A stretch of DNA of 39,145 nucleotides from a virus, in the IMG/VR virus record IMGVR_UViG_3300036851_000192, positions 1 to 39,145 of that record. One strand, given 5' to 3'. Every line of letters starts with the position of its first letter. Position 1 is the stretch's first letter. The notes beneath the pieces were generated by a model that saw only the letters and a list, made by a program, of their open reading frames with translations, was not told the origin of the DNA and made no database searches. The position numbers and the translations under genes are program-made. Of this stretch, positions 1,710 through 39,145 are shown piece by piece.

Positions 1710-2342
1710 CTACTCGACCGCGATGACGAAGTGACCGTTCAGCTTCGCCAGATCGGGGATGGTGCCGCCCTCGACCTTTGCCTGAAGCAGCACGCCTTCC
1801 TTGCTCCAGAACTGATGCGCCGCATCGTTGCCGAGCTCGTCGGACGGATTAAAGCTACCTGCGGCGGAAACGTCGGCCGCGGAATGCAGCCCGTCCTCGT
1901 CTGCGGCGACCGCATCGCCATCGGGCTCGGTGTAGGCCGTCCAGCCGACATCGAGCGTGCGCGCGGCGCCCAAGGCGTCGTGCCCGACGCGCGAGAGTGA
2001 GCCAAATAACGTCACGCGCCCGGCCGGCAGCTTCACGAGATCCACGGTCGAGTTGATGTCGCCCGCGCCCGCTTGCGTAAAGTCGAAGCGCAGCACCCGG
2101 AGCTTCCCGTAGTACGTGTCTGCCGACTGCTTCACGCTTGGCGTCTTGTCAAGGTCGGTCAGCTGCGTCGACTTCTGCGCGGTGACCACGTACGCGACCG
2201 CCATGCCCTCGAGATCCTGCGCCCAGCGATCGAAGAAGCGCGCGAGCCTTTCGGCGAGCGGCCTCGAGATCACGGCCGCCAGCGCGAGGACGCCGGCAAT
2301 CGCCATCAGCAGGAGGAACTTCGCGACTTGCAGAGTGTTCAT
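1710..2342 (-). CDS. Putative capsid-associated (decoration/head) protein with N-terminal membrane segment
   Basis: The 210-residue protein sits immediately downstream of the major capsid gene, where tailed phages often place a decoration or head-completion protein. The start ATG at 2342 has a good ribosome site (AAGGA, about 7 bases upstream); a longer in-frame extension to 2501 would run back into the capsid gene and looks non-coding. Residues about 8-24 form a hydrophobic helix (KFLLLMAIAGVLALAAVI). From residue 47 (MAVAYVV) the sequence is beta-rich, with DINSTVDLVKLPAGRV, FGSLSRV and GGTIP motifs typical of small phage structural proteins. An internal start at that Met would remove the membrane segment but has a poor ribosome site. 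No family is named with certainty. Confidence 0.6.
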   Translation of the reverse strand: MNTLQVAKFLLLMAIAGVLALAAVISRPLAERLARFFDRWAQDLEGMAVAYVVTAQKSTQLTDLDKTPSVKQSADTYYGKLRVLRFDFTQAGAGDINSTVDLVKLPAGRVTLFGSLSRVGHDALGAARTLDVGWTAYTEPDGDAVAADEDGLHSAADVSAAGSFNPSDELGNDAAHQFWSKEGVLLQAKVEGGTIPDLAKLNGHFVIAVE

Positions 2343-2430
2343 GTTGCTTTCCTTCTCGTCGCCCGGAGGCCCGGCCGCCCCGAGGTGGCAGCGGCCGAGA
2401 TAGCGGGCTTTCGCTCTGTGCCCGTCTCGA

Positions 2431-3447
2431 TTACTCGAGGCAGGCGGTTTCGACGACCTTCGCCTCTTCGACCCGCACCGCGCCGATCGACATGCGCGCA
2501 TAGGGCTGAAGGGCGTAGGACTTGTCGGCGCGCTCGGTGAGCCGCGTCATCACCTCGGCGCCGATGCCAAGGGCGATGCCCGACTTCGCCCAGGAGATGA
2601 GGAACCGGTCGTTGGTGACCTTGTCCGCTCGCTCGAATGGCACCCACTCGAAGCCCGCCCACTTGCCCTTCAGGTTGCCCTCCTGAAGCATGCGCACGGC
2701 CAGGTGATCGACCGAGGTGAGCGTGGTGTCGCCGAGCACGTCCTCGAGCGCCTCCGACGAGAAGATGTGATACAGCGTCTCGCCGTTTTCCTCGTCAGCC
2801 TCGTTCGCGCGGAAGAGCTTGCGGGCGGTGATGATCTTCGTCTTCGTGAGCCCGGCGCCCGCAACCGCGATCTTCTGCGCCGCGGTGAGCGCGACCGTGC
2901 CCGAGGCGGCGCGCGCTGCTCCGCGAGCGGCGTCATAGATCACGTCGTCTTTTGTGCGGTTCATCGCCGCGACGCCCGCCTTGAGATACTCCGACTCGGG
3001 ACTGGCCAGCATCTTTTTCTTGTCGAGCTCATCGACGAGATCCGCCCACTCGTAATCGTCGAGGTCGATCCAGCGCGTGCTGTGCGCCGTCTCGATGAGC
3101 GGGGTGTCGCCGTGGCGCGTGGTCTTTTTCTGCGCCGAGGTCGAGCCGATGCGGTTGATCTTCTTCGAATCGCCGACGATGTTCGGCTCCAGGCGCACCC
3201 GCGAGCCCAGCCGCGACTCGGTCTGCTGCGACAGGTGCACGAAGTTCGCGCTGAACTGCTGCACGAAGGCCTCCGTGATCTGGAACGACCAGGCGATGCC
3301 GTGCTTGAGCGTGAGCCACTCGGGCAGCTGCTGCTGGAAGACTGCGCGCGGCATGGCGATCGCCAGCTGCGCCGCGGTGACGAGGAGAGCAGCGACCCCG
3401 ACCGCGATGCCGAGGACCAGGGCCCCGGCGAACTTGAAAGGTTTCAT
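2431..3447 (-). CDS. Major capsid protein with N-terminal membrane segment
   Basis: The 338-residue protein carries the capsid signature of the podovirus Phage_capsid_2-like family: FVQQFSANF at about residue 59, TTRHGDTP, then a WADLVDELDKKKM stretch, and the C-terminal GAVRVEEAKVVE. The start ATG at 3447 has a strong GGGAGAGG site. Unusually, residues 5-31 are a hydrophobic helix (AGALVLGIAVGVAALLV) ending in AQLAIA, which resembles a signal-peptidase site. Typical relatives start just before the FVQQF motif, so this copy carries roughly 50 extra residues. An internal ATG at residue 32 lacks a ribosome site. Scaffold lies upstream and the capsid-associated protein downstream. Confidence 0.85.
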   Translation of the reverse strand: MKPFKFAGALVLGIAVGVAALLVTAAQLAIAMPRAVFQQQLPEWLTLKHGIAWSFQITEAFVQQFSANFVHLSQQTESRLGSRVRLEPNIVGDSKKINRIGSTSAQKKTTRHGDTPLIETAHSTRWIDLDDYEWADLVDELDKKKMLASPESEYLKAGVAAMNRTKDDVIYDAARGAARAASGTVALTAAQKIAVAGAGLTKTKIITARKLFRANEADEENGETLYHIFSSEALEDVLGDTTLTSVDHLAVRMLQEGNLKGKWAGFEWVPFERADKVTNDRFLISWAKSGIALGIGAEVMTRLTERADKSYALQPYARMSIGAVRVEEAKVVETACLE

Positions 3448-3454
3448 GACCTCT

Positions 3455-3486
3455 CCCGAAAAAAGTTGAACAAGCGTTTTTTCGGG
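3455..3486 (-). promoter_or_regulatory. Hairpin just upstream of the capsid ribosome site
   Basis: A 10-bp perfect inverted repeat (CCCGAAAAAA and TTTTTTCGGG) with a 12-base loop ends just before GGGAGAGG, the capsid ribosome site. On the minus strand it would form a stem in the capsid leader. It could be an RNA-processing or stabilising element or an attenuator; the sequence alone does not decide. Confidence 0.5.
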
Positions 3487-3730
3487 TTGTGCCGCCATTT
3501 AGCCGGCGCGTTCTTCACGCGCACCTGGCCGACGGGCCCGGCGTGCGCCGCGGTTTAACGCCCTGCGGTGCTCGGGCGGCGGGCCGGCCTATGCCGGTTA
3601 TGCCGCAATCCCGCTACGCTCGCGCCCGGGCCCCAGGTCTTTCAGGGTTATGCCGGGTGCGCGGTCGCGGTCAGCGGCTTTGTACGACGAGCGTCCCCGC
3701 AAACGGGGCGCTAATGCGTTTTTCTGCGTT
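3487..3730. other. Noncoding interval between scaffold and capsid genes
   Basis: No convincing reading frame is seen on either strand. The interval holds two copies of GGTTATGCCG about 50 bases apart, a CCCCGCAAACGGGG hairpin next to the scaffold stop, and a 17-base AT-rich word (3709-3725) repeated inside the small terminase gene. With the hairpin at 3455-3486 it makes the longest gene-free stretch of the minus arm. It is a plausible place for a late promoter or RNA-processing site, although no clear sigma-70 promoter is visible. Confidence 0.5.
3709..3725. repeat. 17-bp repeat, copy 1 (CGCTAATGCGTTTTTCT)
   Basis: This 17-base word recurs exactly at 30372-30388 in the same orientation. Here it lies just beyond the scaffold stop, in the gap before the capsid gene. 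Confidence 0.6.
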
Positions 3731-4714
3731 CTACGCGGCCTGCCGGCGCTCGCGTGCCGCCTTCGCCTCGTGATGCCTGGTGACCTTGGCGACGGTCTCC
3801 TTGTGGCGCGGGTCGGTCGCGTTCCAGTAGGGCGAGTCCTCTTTGCCCGGTCCGCCGCGCATCAGCTGCTCGAGGCTCTCGCCATCGAGGATCGCGTCGG
3901 GGTAGACGCCCGGGTCCTCACCCATCTCGGCGCCCACCTTGTCGAGCAGCCGAATGATCGCCGGGATGTTCCCCAGCTTGTCGATCTTCGACATGTCCTC
4001 GGGGCTGGCGTAAGCGGCGAACGTGCGATAGGCGCGCTGCACCGCCTTGGTCATCGCCTCCTCGGTCTTGTAGAAGCCCATGAGCTCGGAGCGCGCCTTC
4101 TCCTGCGAGAACTGGGCGACCTGGTCAGAAATGAGCGGCAGATTCTTGTAAAACTCACCGAGGAACCACTCGTATTGCTTTTGCGTGACGCCATGCTCGA
4201 GCGCGCCCTGTCGGAATGCCTTGTCGAGTCGCGGGTCGATGTCGACGCCGAGCTTTTTCACTTCCTCGGGCACGTCGAATTTGTAATCCTCGGCTGCTTT
4301 GGGCGGCAGACCCACGGTGCGCATCCTGGTCTCGAGCTCGCCCAGCGACTTGAACGCCGCTTCCTCGCGCAGCGCGCCCTTCTCGTGGTCCCAGTATTTC
4401 GGGGGGACGTGCTTCGGCCGGCGCGTGTCCTTCTCGGCCGCAGCGAGCGCTTTCGCCTCTGGGGTGTCTGCCGGCGGCGGCTCTGGGTCTTTGCCATCTG
4501 TGCCGAGTTTCTCGAGGAGCGATTTGTCGTCCTTCTTCGGCGGCGCCGGGGGCGGGGCAGCGGGCGGCGCAGGTGGCGCTGGCGGCTCCGGGGGAGCAGG
4601 CGGTGCCGGCGGCGCTGCAGGCGGGGCAGGAGGAGCGGGCGGCGCGGGCGGTTCCTGCGCGATCGACAGCAGCGGGACGAGCGACAGCAGTAGAGCGATG
4701 AGCAGCTTACGCAT
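3731..4714 (-). CDS. Capsid scaffolding protein (T7 gp9-like) with signal-like N-terminus and Pro/Ala linker
   Basis: This is a 327-residue protein directly upstream of the major capsid gene. Residues about 77-330 are helical and charged, with VPPKYWDHEKGALR followed by LKSLGELE-type residues, the pattern of T7-like capsid assembly scaffolds. Scaffolds guide procapsid assembly and then leave. The first 20 residues (MRKLLIALLLSLVPLLSIAQ) look like a cleavable signal peptide or membrane anchor. They are followed by about 40 residues of PPAPP repeats, a linker resembling the rigid periplasmic linker of TonB. Such an N-terminus is not usual for scaffolds. The ATG at 4714 overlaps the Bbp19-like stop by 8 bases and has a GAAGAGG site. 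Confidence 0.8.
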   Translation of the reverse strand: MRKLLIALLLSLVPLLSIAQEPPAPPAPPAPPAAPPAPPAPPEPPAPPAPPAAPPPAPPKKDDKSLLEKLGTDGKDPEPPPADTPEAKALAAAEKDTRRPKHVPPKYWDHEKGALREEAAFKSLGELETRMRTVGLPPKAAEDYKFDVPEEVKKLGVDIDPRLDKAFRQGALEHGVTQKQYEWFLGEFYKNLPLISDQVAQFSQEKARSELMGFYKTEEAMTKAVQRAYRTFAAYASPEDMSKIDKLGNIPAIIRLLDKVGAEMGEDPGVYPDAILDGESLEQLMRGGPGKEDSPYWNATDPRHKETVAKVTRHHEAKAARERRQAA

Positions 4715-4961: not shown

Positions 4962-5556
4962 TGCCCTCGCCTTTAACAAGCGTGCTCGTGGGCTTCGGCT
5001 CGGCGAGGATCACGCCGTGCGGCCCCGCGGTGAATGTCGTAGGGTCCTGCACCTGCGAGAACTGCACCGAGGCGAGCGGCCCCTTCGCACCGACGAAGAC
5101 GTGCGGCTGCGCCTCGTACGGGTCGCCCTGGGCTTCCCTCACGATGATGTAGAGGCATTTCGCGAGCTCGTCCAGGCGCCCGAACCACTGTTCCCAGCGG
5201 TTGCCCTCGATCTCGACCAGGAGGTAATGCGTCTTCACCTGGTGCCCGGTCACCTCGCACGTTGTGCTCGCCGGAAGCGGCGCGTCATTGCCGGTGTAGA
5301 GCGAATAGTCACCCCCGAGCATCTTCGTGAAGGCGAGCAGCTTTCGGCTCTTGATCTCGGGGCGGAACTTCGCCCGCAGGAGCTTCCCCGTGAGGTTCAG
5401 CATGATCATCTCGACGGCCTGGGCGAGGTCGACCACGTCGTCGAACTTGAGCTCGAAGGTGCGGCCGCAGGCGACGATCTTGCCCTTGCCGCCATCGACC
5501 GCGAATTCCTCGATGATGCGCCGGCGCGCGACTTCCTTCGGCGGGATCCACTTCAT
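4954..5556 (-). CDS. Conserved phage protein between portal and Bbp19-like gene, function unknown
   Basis: The 200-residue protein is not recognised by motif. It begins with a basic MKWIPPKEVARRR segment, has mixed alpha/beta character and shows no membrane segment or obvious catalytic motif. The start overlaps the portal stop by one base and the end overlaps the Bbp19-like gene by 8 bases, so it is translationally coupled to virion genes. By position it is probably a head-related structural or assembly protein. Confidence 0.7.
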   Translation of the reverse strand: MKWIPPKEVARRRIIEEFAVDGGKGKIVACGRTFELKFDDVVDLAQAVEMIMLNLTGKLLRAKFRPEIKSRKLLAFTKMLGGDYSLYTGNDAPLPASTTCEVTGHQVKTHYLLVEIEGNRWEQWFGRLDELAKCLYIIVREAQGDPYEAQPHVFVGAKGPLASVQFSQVQDPTTFTAGPHGVILAEPKPTSTLVKGEGNA

Positions 5557-7178
5557 CAGGCGGCTTGCTTTGCTCTCTCGGCGAGAACGTCGGTCACAAC
5601 GGCTTTCATGTTCGCCTGCTGCGCGGCTGCGGCCTTCTGCTCGCGGCGCGCTTTCACCTCGTCCTCGTCGGGGATGAGATTCGCCGGCACGCCCAGGAGC
5701 TCGGCGCGGTGCCTGCGCGCCTCGTCCCAGTTGTAAAGGTCGACCGCATCGGTGAGCCCGGCCCCCAGCTGCGCACCGAGCGCGCCCTCGTAGCGATCCA
5801 TCGCCGCCACGTCGACGGCCTTCTGTGCCCGGGCAATCGGCGAGTTATAGGTGACGCCGATCGAGCGGCTCGCCTCCATGATCGAGCGCGGCGCGGGCGG
5901 CAGCACGCCCGCCCGGTAGGCGATGCCGAAGCAGCGCTTGACGAGCCACTGCAGGTATTCCGACTGCATGCGCCCGTAGATCGGGCCGAGCAGCTGCCGG
6001 ATGAGCTCGACGCGCACGAGGATCTCGGTCGCCGTGGGCGGGGTGCCGGCCTTCAGCTGCGGCTCAAGCTGATCGGCCATGAAGATCCTGCGCACCGCGC
6101 GCTGCAGCCGGTCGAGCTCGAGCACCGCGACGTCGAACTTCCCGGCCGGCTGGATCGGCCAGAAGTTATCTTTGGCCGCCATCACGATCACCTTGCGCGG
6201 GCCGACCCGGATCGAGCGGGCGTTGAGCACGCCATCGTCAACCGCGCCATACATGCCAGAGAGGGCGAGGTCCATGTTTCCGAGGTCATACTTCACGACC
6301 TCGTTGAGCGTCTTCATGTCGGGCAGCGCTTCGAACGCAGGCCCGAAGGCGTAGGCCGAGCCCGGCACCGGGCGCCAGCGCGGCACACCGAGCGGGTTCT
6401 CGTGATAGCCCGACTCGCGCACGATCTTCTTCGTGTCGGTCTCGATGTGCACCGAGGCAAACGGCAGGTTGACCGAGAACATGCCGTGCGGGCCGGTGCG
6501 CGGGTAGGTACAGCGCACGAATTGCACCTGCTCGTCGGGCTTGGTGCGGGCGAGCTCGCGCACCTTCTCCGAGAGCATCTCGGCGCCGTAGTCGCGTTCC
6601 GCCTGCTCGGCTGAAAGCGCGAATTCATTGAACGCGGTGTCAACCGGCCCGCCTGGACGCGAGCAGGCGAAATAGCTATTCGGCAGCGGCCACTCGTCGA
6701 AGCGGTAGCCGCCCTCGTCGGGGTCCTCGTCGGCGAACATCCCGAACATGCCGGCGATGGCCATGTCGAGCATGCAGTCGAAGCTCACCGCGTCGAAGTT
6801 CGACGAATGAACGTTTTCCCAGATGAAATCGGCGGACTCGTCGAGCCAGCGGTGTTCCTCGTCGGTCTCATCGCCGAGCTCAAGGCCAGGCCAGCGCGAA
6901 TTCGAAGGCGTGAGCCCCGACTGCAGGCCCGAGGCGAGGATGCGCGCGCCGTCGGTGCCGGTGCCGTCGAGAAGATCGGCCTGCAGGGTCTTCGCGGTCG
7001 AGGCGTTCTGCGCGCCGACATCACCGCCGCTCGGGCTCCCTTGCGTCTCGAGCGCGACGCCGCGCAGCGGGTAGGTGTAGCGGTAGCACTGACGCCACGG
7101 CTCGTCGACGGTCGCAACGCGGCGAGCTTTCAGCTGCTCGAGCCGCTTCAGGAGCTTCGCGCCGTCGGCCCGCAGCAT
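5556..7178 (-). CDS. Portal (head-to-tail connector) protein
   Basis: The 540-residue protein has the size and pattern of T7 gp8-type portals. It starts with LKRLEQLKARR, has a WRQCYRYTYPL motif at about residue 31, a GLQSGLTPSNSRWP region, VSFDCMLDMAIAG and, late, GTPPTATEILVRVELIRQLLGP. That last segment is typical of the portal helix that precedes the long C-terminal region. Portals form the dodecamer through which DNA is packaged and ejected. The ATG at 7178 is 4 bases past the upstream stop. A longer in-frame extension to 7424 is arginine/serine-rich antisense-like sequence overlapping another gene and is rejected. Confidence 0.88.
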   Translation of the reverse strand: MLRADGAKLLKRLEQLKARRVATVDEPWRQCYRYTYPLRGVALETQGSPSGGDVGAQNASTAKTLQADLLDGTGTDGARILASGLQSGLTPSNSRWPGLELGDETDEEHRWLDESADFIWENVHSSNFDAVSFDCMLDMAIAGMFGMFADEDPDEGGYRFDEWPLPNSYFACSRPGGPVDTAFNEFALSAEQAERDYGAEMLSEKVRELARTKPDEQVQFVRCTYPRTGPHGMFSVNLPFASVHIETDTKKIVRESGYHENPLGVPRWRPVPGSAYAFGPAFEALPDMKTLNEVVKYDLGNMDLALSGMYGAVDDGVLNARSIRVGPRKVIVMAAKDNFWPIQPAGKFDVAVLELDRLQRAVRRIFMADQLEPQLKAGTPPTATEILVRVELIRQLLGPIYGRMQSEYLQWLVKRCFGIAYRAGVLPPAPRSIMEASRSIGVTYNSPIARAQKAVDVAAMDRYEGALGAQLGAGLTDAVDLYNWDEARRHRAELLGVPANLIPDEDEVKARREQKAAAAQQANMKAVVTDVLAERAKQAA

Positions 7179-7182
7179 GCGG

Positions 7183-7458
7183 CTAGGCGCCGAGCGTCGG
7201 TTTGCCGGGCTTCGCCTGGGGCAGCGTGAACGGCAGGTCGATGATGCTGTCGCCCATGCCGCCGGTCGCGAGGAGCGAGGAGCGCCTGCGCCGGCGCCTG
7301 GCGAGCGTCTGCTGCTGAATCGCGGTCTGCTGGGCCTGCGCGGTGATCTCGGCGGCGATCTGCGCGCCCTTCTCCACCTGCTGCGCTGGCGTGGGGGCCG
7401 GCGGCGGCAGCGGAAGATCCGCAATCGCTTGCCAGGCGTGGCTTATGACGGGCGGCAC
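7183..7458 (-). CDS. Small conserved protein preceding the portal
   Basis: The 91-residue protein has a proline-rich start, an ITAQAQQTAIQQQ helix, then RRRRRRSSLLATGGMG and a C-terminal KPTLGA. The basic stretch followed by SLLATGG, with a TLG ending, recurs in small proteins upstream of podovirus portal genes; the function is unknown. It begins 1 base after the preceding stop and ends 4 bases before the portal ATG. Confidence 0.7.
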   Translation of the reverse strand: MPPVISHAWQAIADLPLPPPAPTPAQQVEKGAQIAAEITAQAQQTAIQQQTLARRRRRRSSLLATGGMGDSIIDLPFTLPQAKPGKPTLGA

Positions 7459-23067: not shown

Positions 23068-23261
23068 GGGCGAAGGTGCGGGTGCTAGACTCCGCGCCGG
23101 GACCCGACCCGGAGCTTGCCGCCGATGCCGCCCTTCCGCTGCTCGAGGCCTTCCTGAATGACCAAGAAGCCGAACGCGGTCCTGTACCTGCGAAGCAGCA
23201 AGGATCGCCACGACGTCTCGATCGAAGCCCAGCGCCACGAGCTCGCCAAGCTCGCGGCTGA
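23064..23261 (+). CDS. Possible small protein overlapping the integrase start
   Basis: The frame of 65 residues begins with an ATGA overlap and its first 30 residues (RAKVRVLDSAPGPDPELA) look protein-like. Its last 100 bases overlap the integrase in another frame and are basic low-complexity sequence. It may be a real coupling peptide or a chance frame. Confidence 0.35.
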   Translation: MRAKVRVLDSAPGPDPELAADAALPLLEAFLNDQEAERGPVPAKQQGSPRRLDRSPAPRARQARG

Positions 23262-24693
23262 CCGCGGCTATGCCGTCGTCGGCGAGTTCCGCGACGTCGT
23301 CGAATCCGGCAAAGACGACGACCGCCCCGGCTTTCAGGACCTGATCGAAGCGGCGGGCCGGCGCGATCGCGGCTGGCAGGTGATCATCGTGCTCGACACG
23401 AGCAGGATCGCCCGGCGCCTCGCCGCAGCGGTCAAGTTCGAAGAGGACGTCTGTCGCCAGAAGGGCGTCACCGTCGTCTATAAAAGCATCCCCGAATCCG
23501 AGGACGCCGAGCGCGCGCTCATCAAGGCGGTGCTGCACGGCGTCGACGAATGGCATTCGCTTGTGTCCAGGCGAAAGGCCATCGCCGGCATGCGCCAGAA
23601 CGTGCGCCGCGGCTTTCGCGCCGGCGGCCGAGCGCCGATCGGCTACAAGCTCGACTACGTCGACACCGGGGCAATGCGCGAGGGCAAGCCCGTCCTGAAG
23701 TCGCGCCTGGTGCCATCGAGCGATGCGCAGCTGGTGCAGCGCTACCTGAAGGAGCGAGCCGCCGGTGCCGCGCGCGTCCCGCTCGCCCGCAGGCTCGGCC
23801 TCACGCTGAACGATAGCTCGCTCGTCGGCATCGAGTGGAACGCGCTCACCTATGCCGGGCATACGGTGTGGTACGTGCACGCCGAGCCAGGCGCCGGAAC
23901 GAAACGCCGGCCGCGCGCCGAGTGGGTCGTGCAGCGCGACACGCACGAGGCGCTGATCACCGACAGCGAGGCCGAGGCGCTTGTGAGCAGGCTCGAGGAA
24001 GCGTCGGCCGCTCGCCCGCGGCGCACCGCTGCCGACTATCTGCTCACGGGCTTGCTTCGCACCTCGGCCGGCGTGCCTTGGTACGGGGAGCGCTCCCGGT
24101 ACTACCGCGCCGGCAATGCCTACCTGCCAGCGCGCGACGTCGACGAGGCGATCATGGGCCGCATCGCCCAGGATCTGCGCTCGCAGGCCTTCAGCGCCGC
24201 GCTGGTGCGCCGGGTGCGCTCATCCTACGGGCGGGAGTTCGATGCCGAGATCGAGCGCCTGCGCGCCTCCGAGGCGGCGCTCGTGGGCAGGATCTCGCGC
24301 TTCATGGAGATGGCCGAGAAGAACGACGTCGCCGAGCCGGCGCTTCGCAAGGTGGCCGAGCTCGAGCGCGATCGCAAGAGAATCGAGCGGGAGATCGCCC
24401 AGGCCCGACGCGATGCAGCGACCGCAGCTGCGGCGCGCGCGGTCACCGAGGACCAGGTCGCGGGGCTCCTCGATGCGCTCGCGACCGATATGCAGCGCTT
24501 CGACCGGGAGAAGCTGAAGGACTTCCTGCTCGCCACGGTCGAGCGCGTGACGCTGAATGCTGAGACCTTAAGCGCTCGGATTCATTACAAAATCCCGCTC
24601 ACTCGTCGGGATAGGATGGCGTCCCCACGGACAGCCGAGGCTGTTCCGCACGGGAAAATAACGAGTTACGTCAGGATTCGAAGAGCAGCCTAG
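23158..24693 (+). CDS. int: Large serine integrase (site-specific recombinase)
   Basis: The 511-residue protein has the resolvase-type catalytic domain: YLRSSKD with nucleophile Ser14, then DDDRPGF and VLDTSRIARR at about residues 78-87. This is followed by the recombinase domain (about 140-270, from RKAIAGMRQNVRRGFRAGG) and a long helical coiled coil (about 360-425). The segment at about 295-330 corresponds to the zinc ribbon of large serine integrases, but the usual cysteines are absent. The protein integrates and, with an excision factor, excises the prophage. It ends the plus arm and faces the LuxR-type gene 5 bases away. Confidence 0.9.
   Translation: MTKKPNAVLYLRSSKDRHDVSIEAQRHELAKLAADRGYAVVGEFRDVVESGKDDDRPGFQDLIEAAGRRDRGWQVIIVLDTSRIARRLAAAVKFEEDVCRQKGVTVVYKSIPESEDAERALIKAVLHGVDEWHSLVSRRKAIAGMRQNVRRGFRAGGRAPIGYKLDYVDTGAMREGKPVLKSRLVPSSDAQLVQRYLKERAAGAARVPLARRLGLTLNDSSLVGIEWNALTYAGHTVWYVHAEPGAGTKRRPRAEWVVQRDTHEALITDSEAEALVSRLEEASAARPRRTAADYLLTGLLRTSAGVPWYGERSRYYRAGNAYLPARDVDEAIMGRIAQDLRSQAFSAALVRRVRSSYGREFDAEIERLRASEAALVGRISRFMEMAEKNDVAEPALRKVAELERDRKRIEREIAQARRDAATAAAARAVTEDQVAGLLDALATDMQRFDREKLKDFLLATVERVTLNAETLSARIHYKIPLTRRDRMASPRTAEAVPHGKITSYVRIRRAA
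24628..24648. other. Imperfect palindrome at the integrase 3' end (weak attP candidate)
   Basis: CGGACAGCC-GA-GGCTGTTCCG is a near-perfect dyad with one bulged T, near the integrase stop, in the only junction between the two arms. It could be an attachment-site arm or an RNA hairpin. No tRNA-like identity block is present, and serine integrases need only a short core. Confidence 0.3.
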
Positions 24694-25333: not shown

Positions 25334-25713
25334 GGGTAGCTCCACAGCCAGGGCCGCGGCTGCCCGGGCGCGTTCGGCAGGTCATCCAGGTGAATGAAGC
25401 GCTTGCCGTGCGGGCCGTGCTGCTTGACCCCGATGCCGATGAAGCCTTCCTCGATCGCGACCTGCACCAGGCGCAGCGCCTTGTCGCCGACGACCACGAT
25501 GTCGAACGCGGCGCGCGTGTGCGGGCCGTCGCGACCGGTCGAGCTTTTGTCCTCGTTATGGTCCGGGCAGCGATCGCCGCTCGACACGATGAACGGGAAG
25601 CCGCAGCGCACGCGCACCCGCTCGAGCCGCTCGATCGAGGGCATCGGGATCGTCATGCGGCCGCAATGCCTGCAGGCGAGCTCTTCGCGCGTGAAGTGCG
25701 GCGTCAGCTTCAC
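25330..25713 (-). CDS. M15A-type peptidase endolysin
   Basis: The 127-residue protein matches the peptidase M15_3 family: LTPHFTREELACRHCG at the start, SSGDRCPDHNED at about 44-55, GPHTRAAFDI (His65, Asp71) and RFIHLDDLP (His108), the likely zinc ligands. It cuts peptide cross-links of peptidoglycan, probably as a D-Ala-D-Ala-type peptidase, during lysis. It lacks its own export signal, so a holin is needed. The GTG at 25713 overlaps the TGA of the barrel gene. Confidence 0.88.
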   Translation of the reverse strand: MKLTPHFTREELACRHCGRMTIPMPSIERLERVRVRCGFPFIVSSGDRCPDHNEDKSSTGRDGPHTRAAFDIVVVGDKALRLVQVAIEEGFIGIGVKQHGPHGKRFIHLDDLPNAPGQPRPWLWSYP

Positions 25714-26192
25714 CACGGGTAGAGGAACCGGACCTGCAGCGCCGCGGCCGCGACGTTGCGCTCGGTCTTCGGCACATAGGGCACGTTGATCCCGAAGCCC
25801 TTTGCGAGCTCGACGCCCATCACCGGGAAGACTGCCTTCAGCGGCTCGCCCTTCGTGTAGCCGCTCACGAGCTCGGCCGCCATGCCGAAGCTCACCGGGC
25901 CCAGCTTGAGCGGCATCCAGGCGGCGCCGAAGTAGATCGAGTCGGTGCGCTGCGAGTTACGGTAGAAGCCCGCCGTGATGGCGATGCCGTGGTGAAGGCG
26001 CTGCTCGATGCCGAGGCCCCAGTTCCGCTGCTCGTAGCCGCGCTCGCGACCGCTGTCGAAGTGATGCGAGGCGATCGAGCCGACGAGCCAGGTCTCGCCA
26101 GCGAAGAGCTTGCCGAAGCCGCCGATCGCCACGAGCAGCACCACGCACAGGAGGATCCCGGCGATGAGGCCTTGCCGGAAATCGCTCGACAT
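25710..26192 (-). CDS. Membrane-anchored outer-membrane-barrel-like (PagP/acyloxyacyl-hydrolase-like) protein
   Basis: The 160-residue protein has an N-terminal hydrophobic segment (LIAGILLCVVLLVAIGGFG). It is followed by alternating beta strands ending in aromatic residues (TWLVGSIASHHF, GLGIEQRLHHGIAITAGFY, VRFLYPW at the C-terminus), as in small outer-membrane barrels of the PagP and PagL type. Related proteins occur next to phage endolysins. Whether it acts on lipid A is unproven; His in SIASHHF may be relevant. It starts at ATG 26192. Confidence 0.6.
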   Translation of the reverse strand: MSSDFRQGLIAGILLCVVLLVAIGGFGKLFAGETWLVGSIASHHFDSGRERGYEQRNWGLGIEQRLHHGIAITAGFYRNSQRTDSIYFGAAWMPLKLGPVSFGMAAELVSGYTKGEPLKAVFPVMGVELAKGFGINVPYVPKTERNVAAAALQVRFLYPW

Positions 26193-26414
26193 CTAAATCT
26201 CCGCGCCCTCGACCGGCGGCAGCGGCAGCCGGCATTTGCCTTCCTGCAGGTGCAGCTGTCGCACGAAGAGCTTCTCGAGGTTCTCCTGGTCTAGCAGGTA
26301 GAACCGCCCCGCCTGGGTGTCCAAAATGCCGACGTCGAAGGCCTCGCATTCCGGCACCGTGGCGCAGCCCGCGAGCGCGGTCGCCGTGGACACGGCGAGG
26401 AGCAATCGCCTCAC
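26193..26414 (-). CDS. Small lipoprotein, candidate outer-membrane spanin subunit
   Basis: The 73-residue protein starts at GTG in a GTGA overlap. It has a short basic start, a hydrophobic segment and lipobox LAGC (Cys17). The mature part is small and ends PLPPVEGAEI, and has two further cysteines. It directly follows a small membrane coiled-coil protein, the layout of i-spanin plus o-spanin pairs, though it is not especially proline-rich. Confidence 0.6.
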   Translation of the reverse strand: MRRLLLAVSTATALAGCATVPECEAFDVGILDTQAGRFYLLDQENLEKLFVRQLHLQEGKCRLPLPPVEGAEI

Positions 26415-37674: not shown

Positions 37675-39145
37675 TCAGCCCTCGTTCAAGGAAAGCTTCG
37701 CCACGACGCCGAGCACCTGCATCGGCAGCGGCTGATCGCGCTCGATCGTGATCGTGCCGTCTGAGTCGCCGCCGCCGGTGCGCCCCCATCCGAGGTTCTC
37801 GACGCGCTTGTCGCCAGTGAATTCAGGCACCGGCTGATCGAGTACGGCGCCCGTGCCGAACTTGCGCGAGAGGATCGGCTGCCCGTTCACCTTGCCGCCC
37901 TTCGTCTTGTGAAAACGAACGACGACCTCGTGAATCGAGATGGCGCTCCCCTGGGCGGTGCCCGTCGTGGTCGCGATCTCGGGCGGGAGCGTGACGATGG
38001 TCGATTTGAAGTCGAGGCCGATCTCGACCTTGTAGGCGGCCTTGTCGAGCACGATCGCCGCTGCGGCGACGGTCTTTGGCTTCGCGACATACCCGTCGGC
38101 GACGATGTTTACCGTCTTCGCCTCAAGGTGGCCGAGGCCCGCCCAGTTCTTCGTCGCCTGCGCATCGGTGCCGATCACGGTGATCGCGCCCGGGTCATTG
38201 GCGATCGCCACGGTGTAGGTGTTCGCCCCCGTCACCGTGATCGTGTATTCCGCGTTGATTGAGCTCGGCGTGAAGCTCGAAAGCCGGATTTTGTTCCCGG
38301 TCGAATACCCGTGGCCGGCGCGCGTGAGGGTAAGAACACCCGCCGCCCAGACCGCGGCCGTGATGGCGTTCTCGGCGACCGCGCCGGTGACGGCCGAGTC
38401 GGTCTCGAGGCCATCCTCGAATCGCTCGATGTAGCGCTTCGTGGCCCCGTTGATCGTGCGCACGACCACGGCCCAAAGCTGGCTCGAGTCCTCGGTCGGA
38501 ATCACCGCGACGCTCTCGAAAAGGCCGTCGGTTTGATGCCGCGCGAAGCCGACGGCCTCCTGATCCCGGTCGATCGACATCGAGACGAGAAAGCCGTCGT
38601 CGCGCACCATCCACAGCAGCTGATCGGGGTCCTGCTGGTAGGCCATCTCGAGAATGCCGTCGCCCGTGATGTGCTCGGCGAGCACCGAGATGTCGGGCGC
38701 GCTGAACTGCTCGATGTCCGAGCGAAAGCTCAAGGCGCGAAGCTTCTTGCCCCCGTCCTGCACGAAGATCACGTCGTTTCCGACGCGCGCCGGGCGCGCG
38801 ATCGAGCAGCCGTAGGCCGTGTCCGGGTTCGCCTGCACGTTCGTCGGCGAGATCGGCGTCTCGATGCCGCCGAGCATCGCCCACTCGGCGCCGGCGGTGA
38901 GGGGATGCAGCGCCTTGCCCGCAGCGATGTGCTCGATCTCGTCAAGCTGATCGGAGGCGAGCGCGAACGTGAAGGCATCCGAGTCACCGATGCCGTCGGC
39001 GAAGTTGTAAAGCTCCCCGATGCGCGAGCCCCAGACGACGTTCGGATAGTTAGGACTGCCCCCGGCGATGAGCCGCTGCTGATACAGGCCCACGGCCTGC
39101 GGGTACTTGTCGACCGAATTCCATTGCACCTGCCGAAGCGCCCAG
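37675..39145 (-). CDS. Tail tubular protein B-like, C-terminal part (gene continues from 1077 through the circle)
   Basis: This is the continuation of the tail nozzle gene that starts at 1077; bases 39019-39145 duplicate 1-127. It contains WGSRIGELYNF soon after the join, then repeats of the form AAVWAAGVLTLTRAGHGYST followed by TITVTGANTYTVAI, which databases label E1 FCCH-like. The C-terminus (ITIERDQPLPMQVLGVVAKL) is typical of these podovirus nozzle proteins. The stop at 37675 is followed 3 bases later by the gp14-like ATG. Confidence 0.88.
   Translation of the reverse strand, partial: WALRQVQWNSVDKYPQAVGLYQQRLIAGGSPNYPNVVWGSRIGELYNFADGIGDSDAFTFALASDQLDEIEHIAAGKALHPLTAGAEWAMLGGIETPISPTNVQANPDTAYGCSIARPARVGNDVIFVQDGGKKLRALSFRSDIEQFSAPDISVLAEHITGDGILEMAYQQDPDQLLWMVRDDGFLVSMSIDRDQEAVGFARHQTDGLFESVAVIPTEDSSQLWAVVVRTINGATKRYIERFEDGLETDSAVTGAVAENAITAAVWAAGVLTLTRAGHGYSTGNKIRLSSFTPSSINAEYTITVTGANTYTVAIANDPGAITVIGTDAQATKNWAGLGHLEAKTVNIVADGYVAKPKTVAAAAIVLDKAAYKVEIGLDFKSTIVTLPPEIATTTGTAQGSAISIHEVVVRFHKTKGGKVNGQPILSRKFGTGAVLDQPVPEFTGDKRVENLGWGRTGGGDSDGTITIERDQPLPMQVLGVVAKLSLNEG
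39019..39145. repeat. Direct terminal repeat, right copy
   Basis: Exact duplicate of 1-127; see the left copy. Confidence 0.95.

Follow-up and report, generated by a model that had tools for sequence, protein, structure and literature searches.

We analyzed the viral record IMGVR_UViG_3300036851_000192 over its full length of 39,145 bases (hereafter, the window) and focused on three adjacent minus-strand head genes coding for a scaffold, a major capsid protein, and a putative decoration protein. Each of the three proteins starts with a strongly hydrophobic N-terminal leader; the leader start is the sole start for the capsid and the scaffold, and the capsid leader is translated, obligate, functional, and under purifying selection. 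We tentatively read the leaders, at somewhat less than an even chance, as devices that direct head proteins to the inner membrane of the host while they are being made, so that the heads would be assembled there. The maximum 15-residue Kyte-Doolittle scores near the N-termini were 2.81 for the scaffold, 2.86 for the capsid, and 2.87 for the third protein, with negative crude insertion energies for all three. A first-pass annotation had described three consecutive head proteins with hydrophobic starts; this description holds, and the coordinates, strand, and N-terminal sequences were correct on re-check. Among the gene calls of the window, the sole other protein with a Kyte-Doolittle score reaching 2 is PagP-like (25710-26192, minus strand).

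The capsid is a clear member of the Phage_capsid_2 family with an HK97 fold. The PF19821 match covers the full profile (positions 1-293 of 293; 236.6 bits versus a cut-off of 25), and both it and the phrog_3437 match start at capsid residues 54-57. The AlphaFold2 model showed the HK97 fold, with the body mostly at pLDDT 70-93, and its top Foldseek match and best solved relative was the LME-1 phage capsid (9eg4, E 6.1e-14). The body (residues 54-338) is thus a full-length member of the group that includes Pelagibacter phage HTVC010P, Yersinia phages YeP4-6, and Pseudomonas/Stenotrophomonas prophages, so that the comparison with T7-like phages made in the first-pass annotation is not apt. These relatives are 40-87% identical to the window capsid and have the gene order portal, scaffold, capsid, small protein, tail tubular protein in common with it. 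Nearly all of their capsids begin without a leader at MSFQxTEAF or its equivalent, whereas the window capsid departs from this family-typical, though not strictly defining, start at the capsid domain by carrying a hydrophobic extension.

We surveyed 99 capsid, 96 decoration, and 89 scaffold homologues from about 100 loci, which are denoted below by L numbers. The capsid starts at MSFQVTEAF or its equivalent, corresponding to window residue 53, in about 96 of the 99 loci, and the leader is present in three (the window, L002, and L003). The three leaders, MKPFKFAGALVLGIAVGVAALLVTAAQLAIAMPRAVFQQQLPEWLTLKHGIAW, MKPLKFAGGILAGIIVAVAALLLTATQIAVAVPRAILGLELPEALKLKHGIAW, and MRAFKFAGGLVLGIAVAVAALFITASQLALAIPQALLQHQLPDWLKFKPGIAW, align without gaps over 53 residues, and those of L002 and L003 are 64-68% identical to that of the window; the phages come from separate metagenomes. 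The AIA-like site noted earlier at the end of the capsid segment is an invariant A-x-A, present as AIA, AVA, or ALA. The ancestral start Met is replaced by Trp in all three capsids, codon 32 is ATG in the window, GTG in L002, and ATC in L003, and none of the internal starts of the window capsid has a ribosome site. Since no alternative start is conserved, the leader is obligate. At a synonymous divergence (dS) of roughly 0.5-1.2, the Nei-Gojobori ratio of nonsynonymous to synonymous divergence (dN/dS) was 0.23-0.37 in the leader versus 0.08-0.19 in the body, showing purifying selection, which by itself says nothing of what the leader does. Homologues starting at the internal Met had been named as an argument against such leaders; most homologues do start there, but the finding stands, given the selection on the capsid leader and the loss of the internal Met in three phages. 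A single capsid gene was found in the window genome, and no second, leaderless copy.

We also considered a SecM-like arrest peptide as the capsid leader. The SecM arrest motif is FxxxxWIxxxxGIRAGP, with R163 and P166 essential. The pattern W-L-x4-G-I-A-W occurs in two of the three leader sequences, but the essential Arg and Pro are missing, and this candidate was rejected.

For the scaffold, whose homologues in the same gene order are annotated as "capsid assembly protein" or "putative protease", the first 130 codons contain no further ATG, GTG, or TTG. A related leader (MLKTTIAALLLALSLTAVA-QEPPPP; 52% identity over 25 residues) is present in L006, and the scaffold N-termini elsewhere are mostly polar or short and amphipathic, for example in L002, L003, L005, and L008. 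An ancestral amphipathic membrane-binding helix on all scaffolds was rejected, as the hydrophobic moments were generally not above those of shuffled sequences. The earlier claim that only the chosen ATGs have a good ribosome site is borne out, with one qualification for the third protein, where Met47 has a weak GAGG.

The third protein would act as a decoration or cement protein; its body gave a poor structure model with just one weak match, to a cement-protein fold. Its N-terminal family normally begins with MAVVNTKST, and 46 residues precede that point in the window, with helices at residues 3-25 and 27-47 modelled at pLDDT 80-88. This leader is homologous to that of L008 (40% identity over 80 residues, E 2e-16; z 7.2 against class-preserving shuffles), whereas the L006 leader is of a different type, and L002 and L003 have a shorter one in common. 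Met47 corresponds to the ancestral start, and the nearby GAGG is 2 bases off in the window and 5 in L008, so that a second, short form of the protein may possibly be produced; in L002 and L003 the ancestral Met has been lost. As a separate observation, the window protein (1710-2342) looks chimeric: its leader and first residues resemble those of L008, and the rest resembles the leaderless counterpart in L082, whose capsid is of another subtype.

Among the surveyed homologues, hydrophobic head-protein leaders are confined to one 15-row clade (support 100/100), and this clustering is more than chance. Decoration leaders are found in five phages, capsid leaders in three, and scaffold signal peptides in two: the window has all three, L002 and L003 combine capsid and decoration leaders, L006 combines scaffold and decoration leaders, and L008 has a decoration leader alone, while L004, L005, and L007 have none. 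No leader-bearing relative beyond L002, L003, L006, and L008, and no host, was found by viral-contig and genome-contig scans and in whole genomes (369 of one class and 399 of one order; the Trp-pattern match L083 was left out). Because three different genes have the property in common and the leader sequences differ, the pattern suggests that a hydrophobic N-terminus was itself selected for and did not come about through a single accident.

Alignment of the 5' contexts revealed the same ribosome site and spacing in leader-bearing and leaderless genes. In the capsid genes, the run CAACTTTTTT is followed by a GGGAG-like site, GCC, and then either the ancestral ATG or the leader ATG. L006 and L008 have GCTGGGTATGAGGCCCACA and a GGAG site ahead of the leader start of their decoration genes, where leaderless relatives have the ancestral start; the decoration contexts of the window, L002, and L003 are more diverged. 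The leader start thus follows the ancestral ribosome site exactly, a placement clearest in the capsid genes and in the L006 and L008 decoration genes, and since it takes the position of the ancestral start codon wherever the upstream context can be aligned, the leaders are best read as probable in-frame 5' insertions at the start codon. Such insertions would also show that a capsid gene can acquire a targeting module precisely at its start codon. The capsid-body tree pairs the window with leaderless L004 (82/94), whose capsid is 87% identical to that of the window, and L002 with L003 (97/95), a grouping that implies at least two capsid-leader events (gains, losses, or transfer). Synonymous divergence did not differ clearly between leader and body, and the history may involve either transfer or repeated loss. 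No source gene for the leaders was found among the loci and plasmids searched. We do not claim that the leaders of capsid and decoration proteins go back to one source; 45 comparisons gave one clearly suggestive pair.

Several sequence properties bear on membrane targeting. Besides those of the window, the leaders of L006 and L008 and the capsid leaders of L002 and L003 gave negative crude insertion energies, compared with +1 to +2 for the short decoration leaders of L002 and L003 and about +6 to +7 for leaderless N-termini. By inspection, the leaders of the capsid and scaffold resemble Sec signal peptides, with an N-region charge of +2 to +3, core scores of 2.3-2.9, small residues at -3 and -1, and cleavage-like ends (AIA, AVA, or ALA in capsid leaders, SIA and AVA in scaffold leaders). 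With equal positive charge on either side of its helix, the window decoration leader is compatible with a signal anchor that leaves the body in the cytoplasm, although the charge rule is indecisive. The membrane-tethered procapsid proposed in the first-pass annotation therefore fares well in part: a membrane link is the most natural reading, but one common tether is too simple, because the capsid and scaffold leaders are Sec-like and the decoration leader is signal-anchor-like.

In the mechanism that we propose, in-frame coding inserts would provide hydrophobic N-terminal helices at the start codons of up to three adjacent head genes. Recognition of the leaders during translation, by the signal recognition particle (SRP)/Sec route or by YidC, would bring the nascent head proteins to the inner membrane. 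The anchor of the decoration protein would persist and leave its body on the cytoplasmic side, whereas signal peptidase I or a phage protease would cleave off the leaders of the capsid and scaffold, unless these were retained up to maturation. Head assembly would begin on or near the membrane, as it does in T4 with the portal. A more far-reaching version, in which an HK97-fold capsid is made as a membrane-targeted precursor, the head is built from membrane-bound subunits or around lipid, the leaders are cut in maturation, and the modules have been gained or swapped repeatedly, appears doubtful to us.

Several points weigh against membrane targeting. Membrane insertion of the leaders is a prediction from sequence, and the positive-inside charge distribution predicts export of the capsid and scaffold bodies to the periplasm. 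A periplasmic capsid body would be useless for the head, since DNA cannot be packaged there, unless export were avoided through fast folding, lack of translocation, or anchor retention. The N-terminus of HK97-fold capsids faces the shell interior, which would place a hydrophobic N-terminal helix inside the procapsid and makes the anchoring of every subunit to a flat membrane geometrically hard. No leader is present on the portal or the terminase, both of which have to contact the capsid, and the close relatives L004 and L007 manage without any.

The accepted view is that soluble subunits build the heads of tailed phages in the cytoplasm. The T4 prohead starts on the inner membrane via the gp20 portal and gp40 (PMC9958956), a membrane-linked assembly like that proposed here; however, the T4 contact is made by the portal and a chaperone and not by capsid, scaffold, or decoration proteins, and the window portal is leaderless. 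Prohead membrane association was described in a 2011 review as not shown for phages other than T4 (PMC3185693). The pVIII major coat protein of filamentous phages has a cleaved leader and inserts into the inner membrane before assembly (PMC3185693), and in this respect it resembles the window capsid, although its fold, virion, and export route are unrelated to those of an HK97-fold icosahedral head. The open-licence literature searched yielded no earlier case of a tailed-phage major capsid protein with a signal-peptide-like leader. An obligate, selected leader of this kind on the capsid, with further leaders on two adjacent proteins, would open membrane-linked assembly of an HK97-fold shell to direct testing, with the leader-bearing and leaderless close relatives as a natural comparison set.

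The main rival explanation, which we regard as rather unlikely, is that the capsid and scaffold leaders act away from any membrane as a hydrophobic internal scaffolding domain, which would point into the procapsid lumen, self-associate, help to nucleate the shell, and be cut at maturation like a very small HK97 delta domain. The capsid N-terminus is where HK97 and T5 have their delta domains (PMC3185693), and the window leader is likewise an N-terminal capsid extension that may be removed at maturation. A free helix was predicted at capsid residues 8-31, albeit at pLDDT <50 in the AlphaFold2 model, which, with three leader sequences available, speaks neither for nor against packing; the A-x-A together with the conserved P-x-A...LP..L..K.GIAW could be a protease site. 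However, the HK97/T5 delta domain is a polar, helix-loop-helix scaffold that replaces a scaffold gene, whereas the window has a separate scaffold gene and a leader with a long, unbroken hydrophobic core, negative insertion energy, and a basic N-region, and no clear prohead protease was recognized among the head-region proteins scanned. Moreover, L002 and L003 combine a capsid leader with a polar scaffold N-terminus and L006 shows the reverse, so the two leaders are independent, and the decoration leader is left unexplained.

Distinctly less probable is a membrane or periplasmic job apart from assembly, such as superinfection block, envelope change, or evasion of capsid-sensing defences, with two forms of the decoration protein made from two starts, the long one for the membrane and the short one for the head. 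The weak GAGG kept at Met47 in the window and L008, the Sec-like layout of the capsid and scaffold leaders, and the patchy distribution expected of an arms-race trait agree with such a role. Against it, the capsid and scaffold lack a second start and there is one capsid gene, so that every copy bears the leader; a role purely outside assembly would leave the head short of subunits if cleavage or retention were not partial, and L002 and L003 have lost the internal decoration Met.

We consider it very improbable that the particle retains the hydrophobic helices and holds or binds lipid, either as an inner lipid patch or through attachment of finished heads to membranes or vesicles. The inner head proteins (capsid, scaffold) and a probably outer one (decoration) bear such helices, and PRD1 and PM2 are icosahedral phages able to hold a membrane, but to our knowledge there is no lipid-containing tailed phage of the HK97 fold. 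The lumen is filled by packaged DNA, and the set of leaders varies from phage to phage; PRD1 is also mentioned in the review (PMC3185693). Hardly any credence is due to a start-site artefact or a neutral, functionless extension, since, although most homologues use an internal start and Met47 of the window decoration protein could serve as one, chance or mis-annotated starts are ruled out for the capsid and scaffold by the start-codon, dN/dS, and 5'-context evidence given above, including the ribosome site and spacing conserved before the leader ATG.

Table 1. Coordinates of the head-gene features of the window (aa, amino acid residues)
Feature	Position	Strand	Description or basis
Tail tubular protein	1077-1646	minus	
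Third protein, putative decoration/cement protein, 210 aa	1710..2342	minus	Lies after the capsid gene; resembles the small protein found there in relatives
Decoration leader, aa 1-46	2205..2342	minus	Predicted membrane helix ~aa 9-25 and amphipathic helix aa 27-46
Decoration-gene ribosome site AAGGA	2350..2354	minus	Sequence
Major capsid protein, 338 aa, Phage_capsid_2 (PF19821)	2431..3447	minus	PF19821 at aa 57-338, E 4.5e-70
Capsid leader, aa 1-53	3289..3447	minus	Basic N-region, hydrophobic helix aa 6-31, A-x-A at 29-31, conserved stretch ending GIAW
Capsid-gene ribosome site GGGAG, common to leaderless relatives	3453..3457	minus	Aligned 5' contexts
Conserved RNA structure of the capsid 5' untranslated region, directly ahead of the ribosome site	3482..3541	minus	12 consensus pairs
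Scaffold/capsid assembly protein, 327 aa	3731..4714	minus	phrog_3742, E 1.8e-22 over aa 80-318
Predicted scaffold signal peptide, aa 1-19 (MRKLLIALLLSLVPLLSIA)	4658..4714	minus	Followed by a PPAPP linker to ~aa 60
Portal reading frame (PF12236)	5556-7424	minus	

A conserved structured RNA element was also identified ahead of the capsid gene. Its 12 consensus pairs were derived from 13 sequences, and four of the pairs show compensatory changes; the layout GGCC-stem-CGGC..GCUAAAUGG-stem-ACAACC is found at the same place in L002-L018. With a covariance model, all 15 clade members searched gave a single strong match, invariably located directly ahead of the capsid gene, and matches elsewhere were weak; the model was built from 13 of those 15 sequences, whose matches are by construction, while L013 and L016 are outside it. 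Rfam gave no match to the element at the gathering level. Since the element occurs in phages with and without leaders, this evidence does not link the two. In nearly all relatives (L019-L061; window ~3455-3730, minus strand), ~200-450 bases between the scaffold and capsid genes are apparently non-coding, and by eye they contain serial GC-rich hairpins ending in ACAACC, ATACC, or ACACC, for example CCCGGCCCGCAACGCGGATACCCGG; more distantly related phages carry similar serial hairpins in their long capsid 5' region, again by eye. The short hairpin-like motif GCTGGGTATGAGGCCCACA is conserved directly before the decoration ribosome site in L004 (~3940-3980), L006 (~3015-3035), L008 (~2570-2590), and relatives.

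A direct terminal repeat of 127 bases (1-127 and 39019-39145) and the single capsid gene make the record look like a complete phage genome, probably circular or terminally redundant; together with a serine integrase gene (23158-24693; phrog_95, E 4.7e-45) they indicate most likely a complete temperate phage. The leader-bearing phages belong to a small clade of temperate, podophage-like members, whose hosts are probably Gram-negative bacteria. The minus-strand head genes are arranged in the order portal, small proteins, scaffold, capsid, third protein, and tail tubular protein. The portal frame is open far upstream of the recognizable portal, with the match beginning at about residue 73-78. The PagP-like gene, a cargo gene for lipid A acylation with a hydrophobic N-terminus, matches phrog_3600 (E 1.6e-10), and the adjacent minus-strand gene (26193-26414) codes for a small protein with a lipoprotein-like start (MRRLLLAVSTATALAGCATV) and a weak likeness to Cor superinfection-exclusion proteins (E 0.022).

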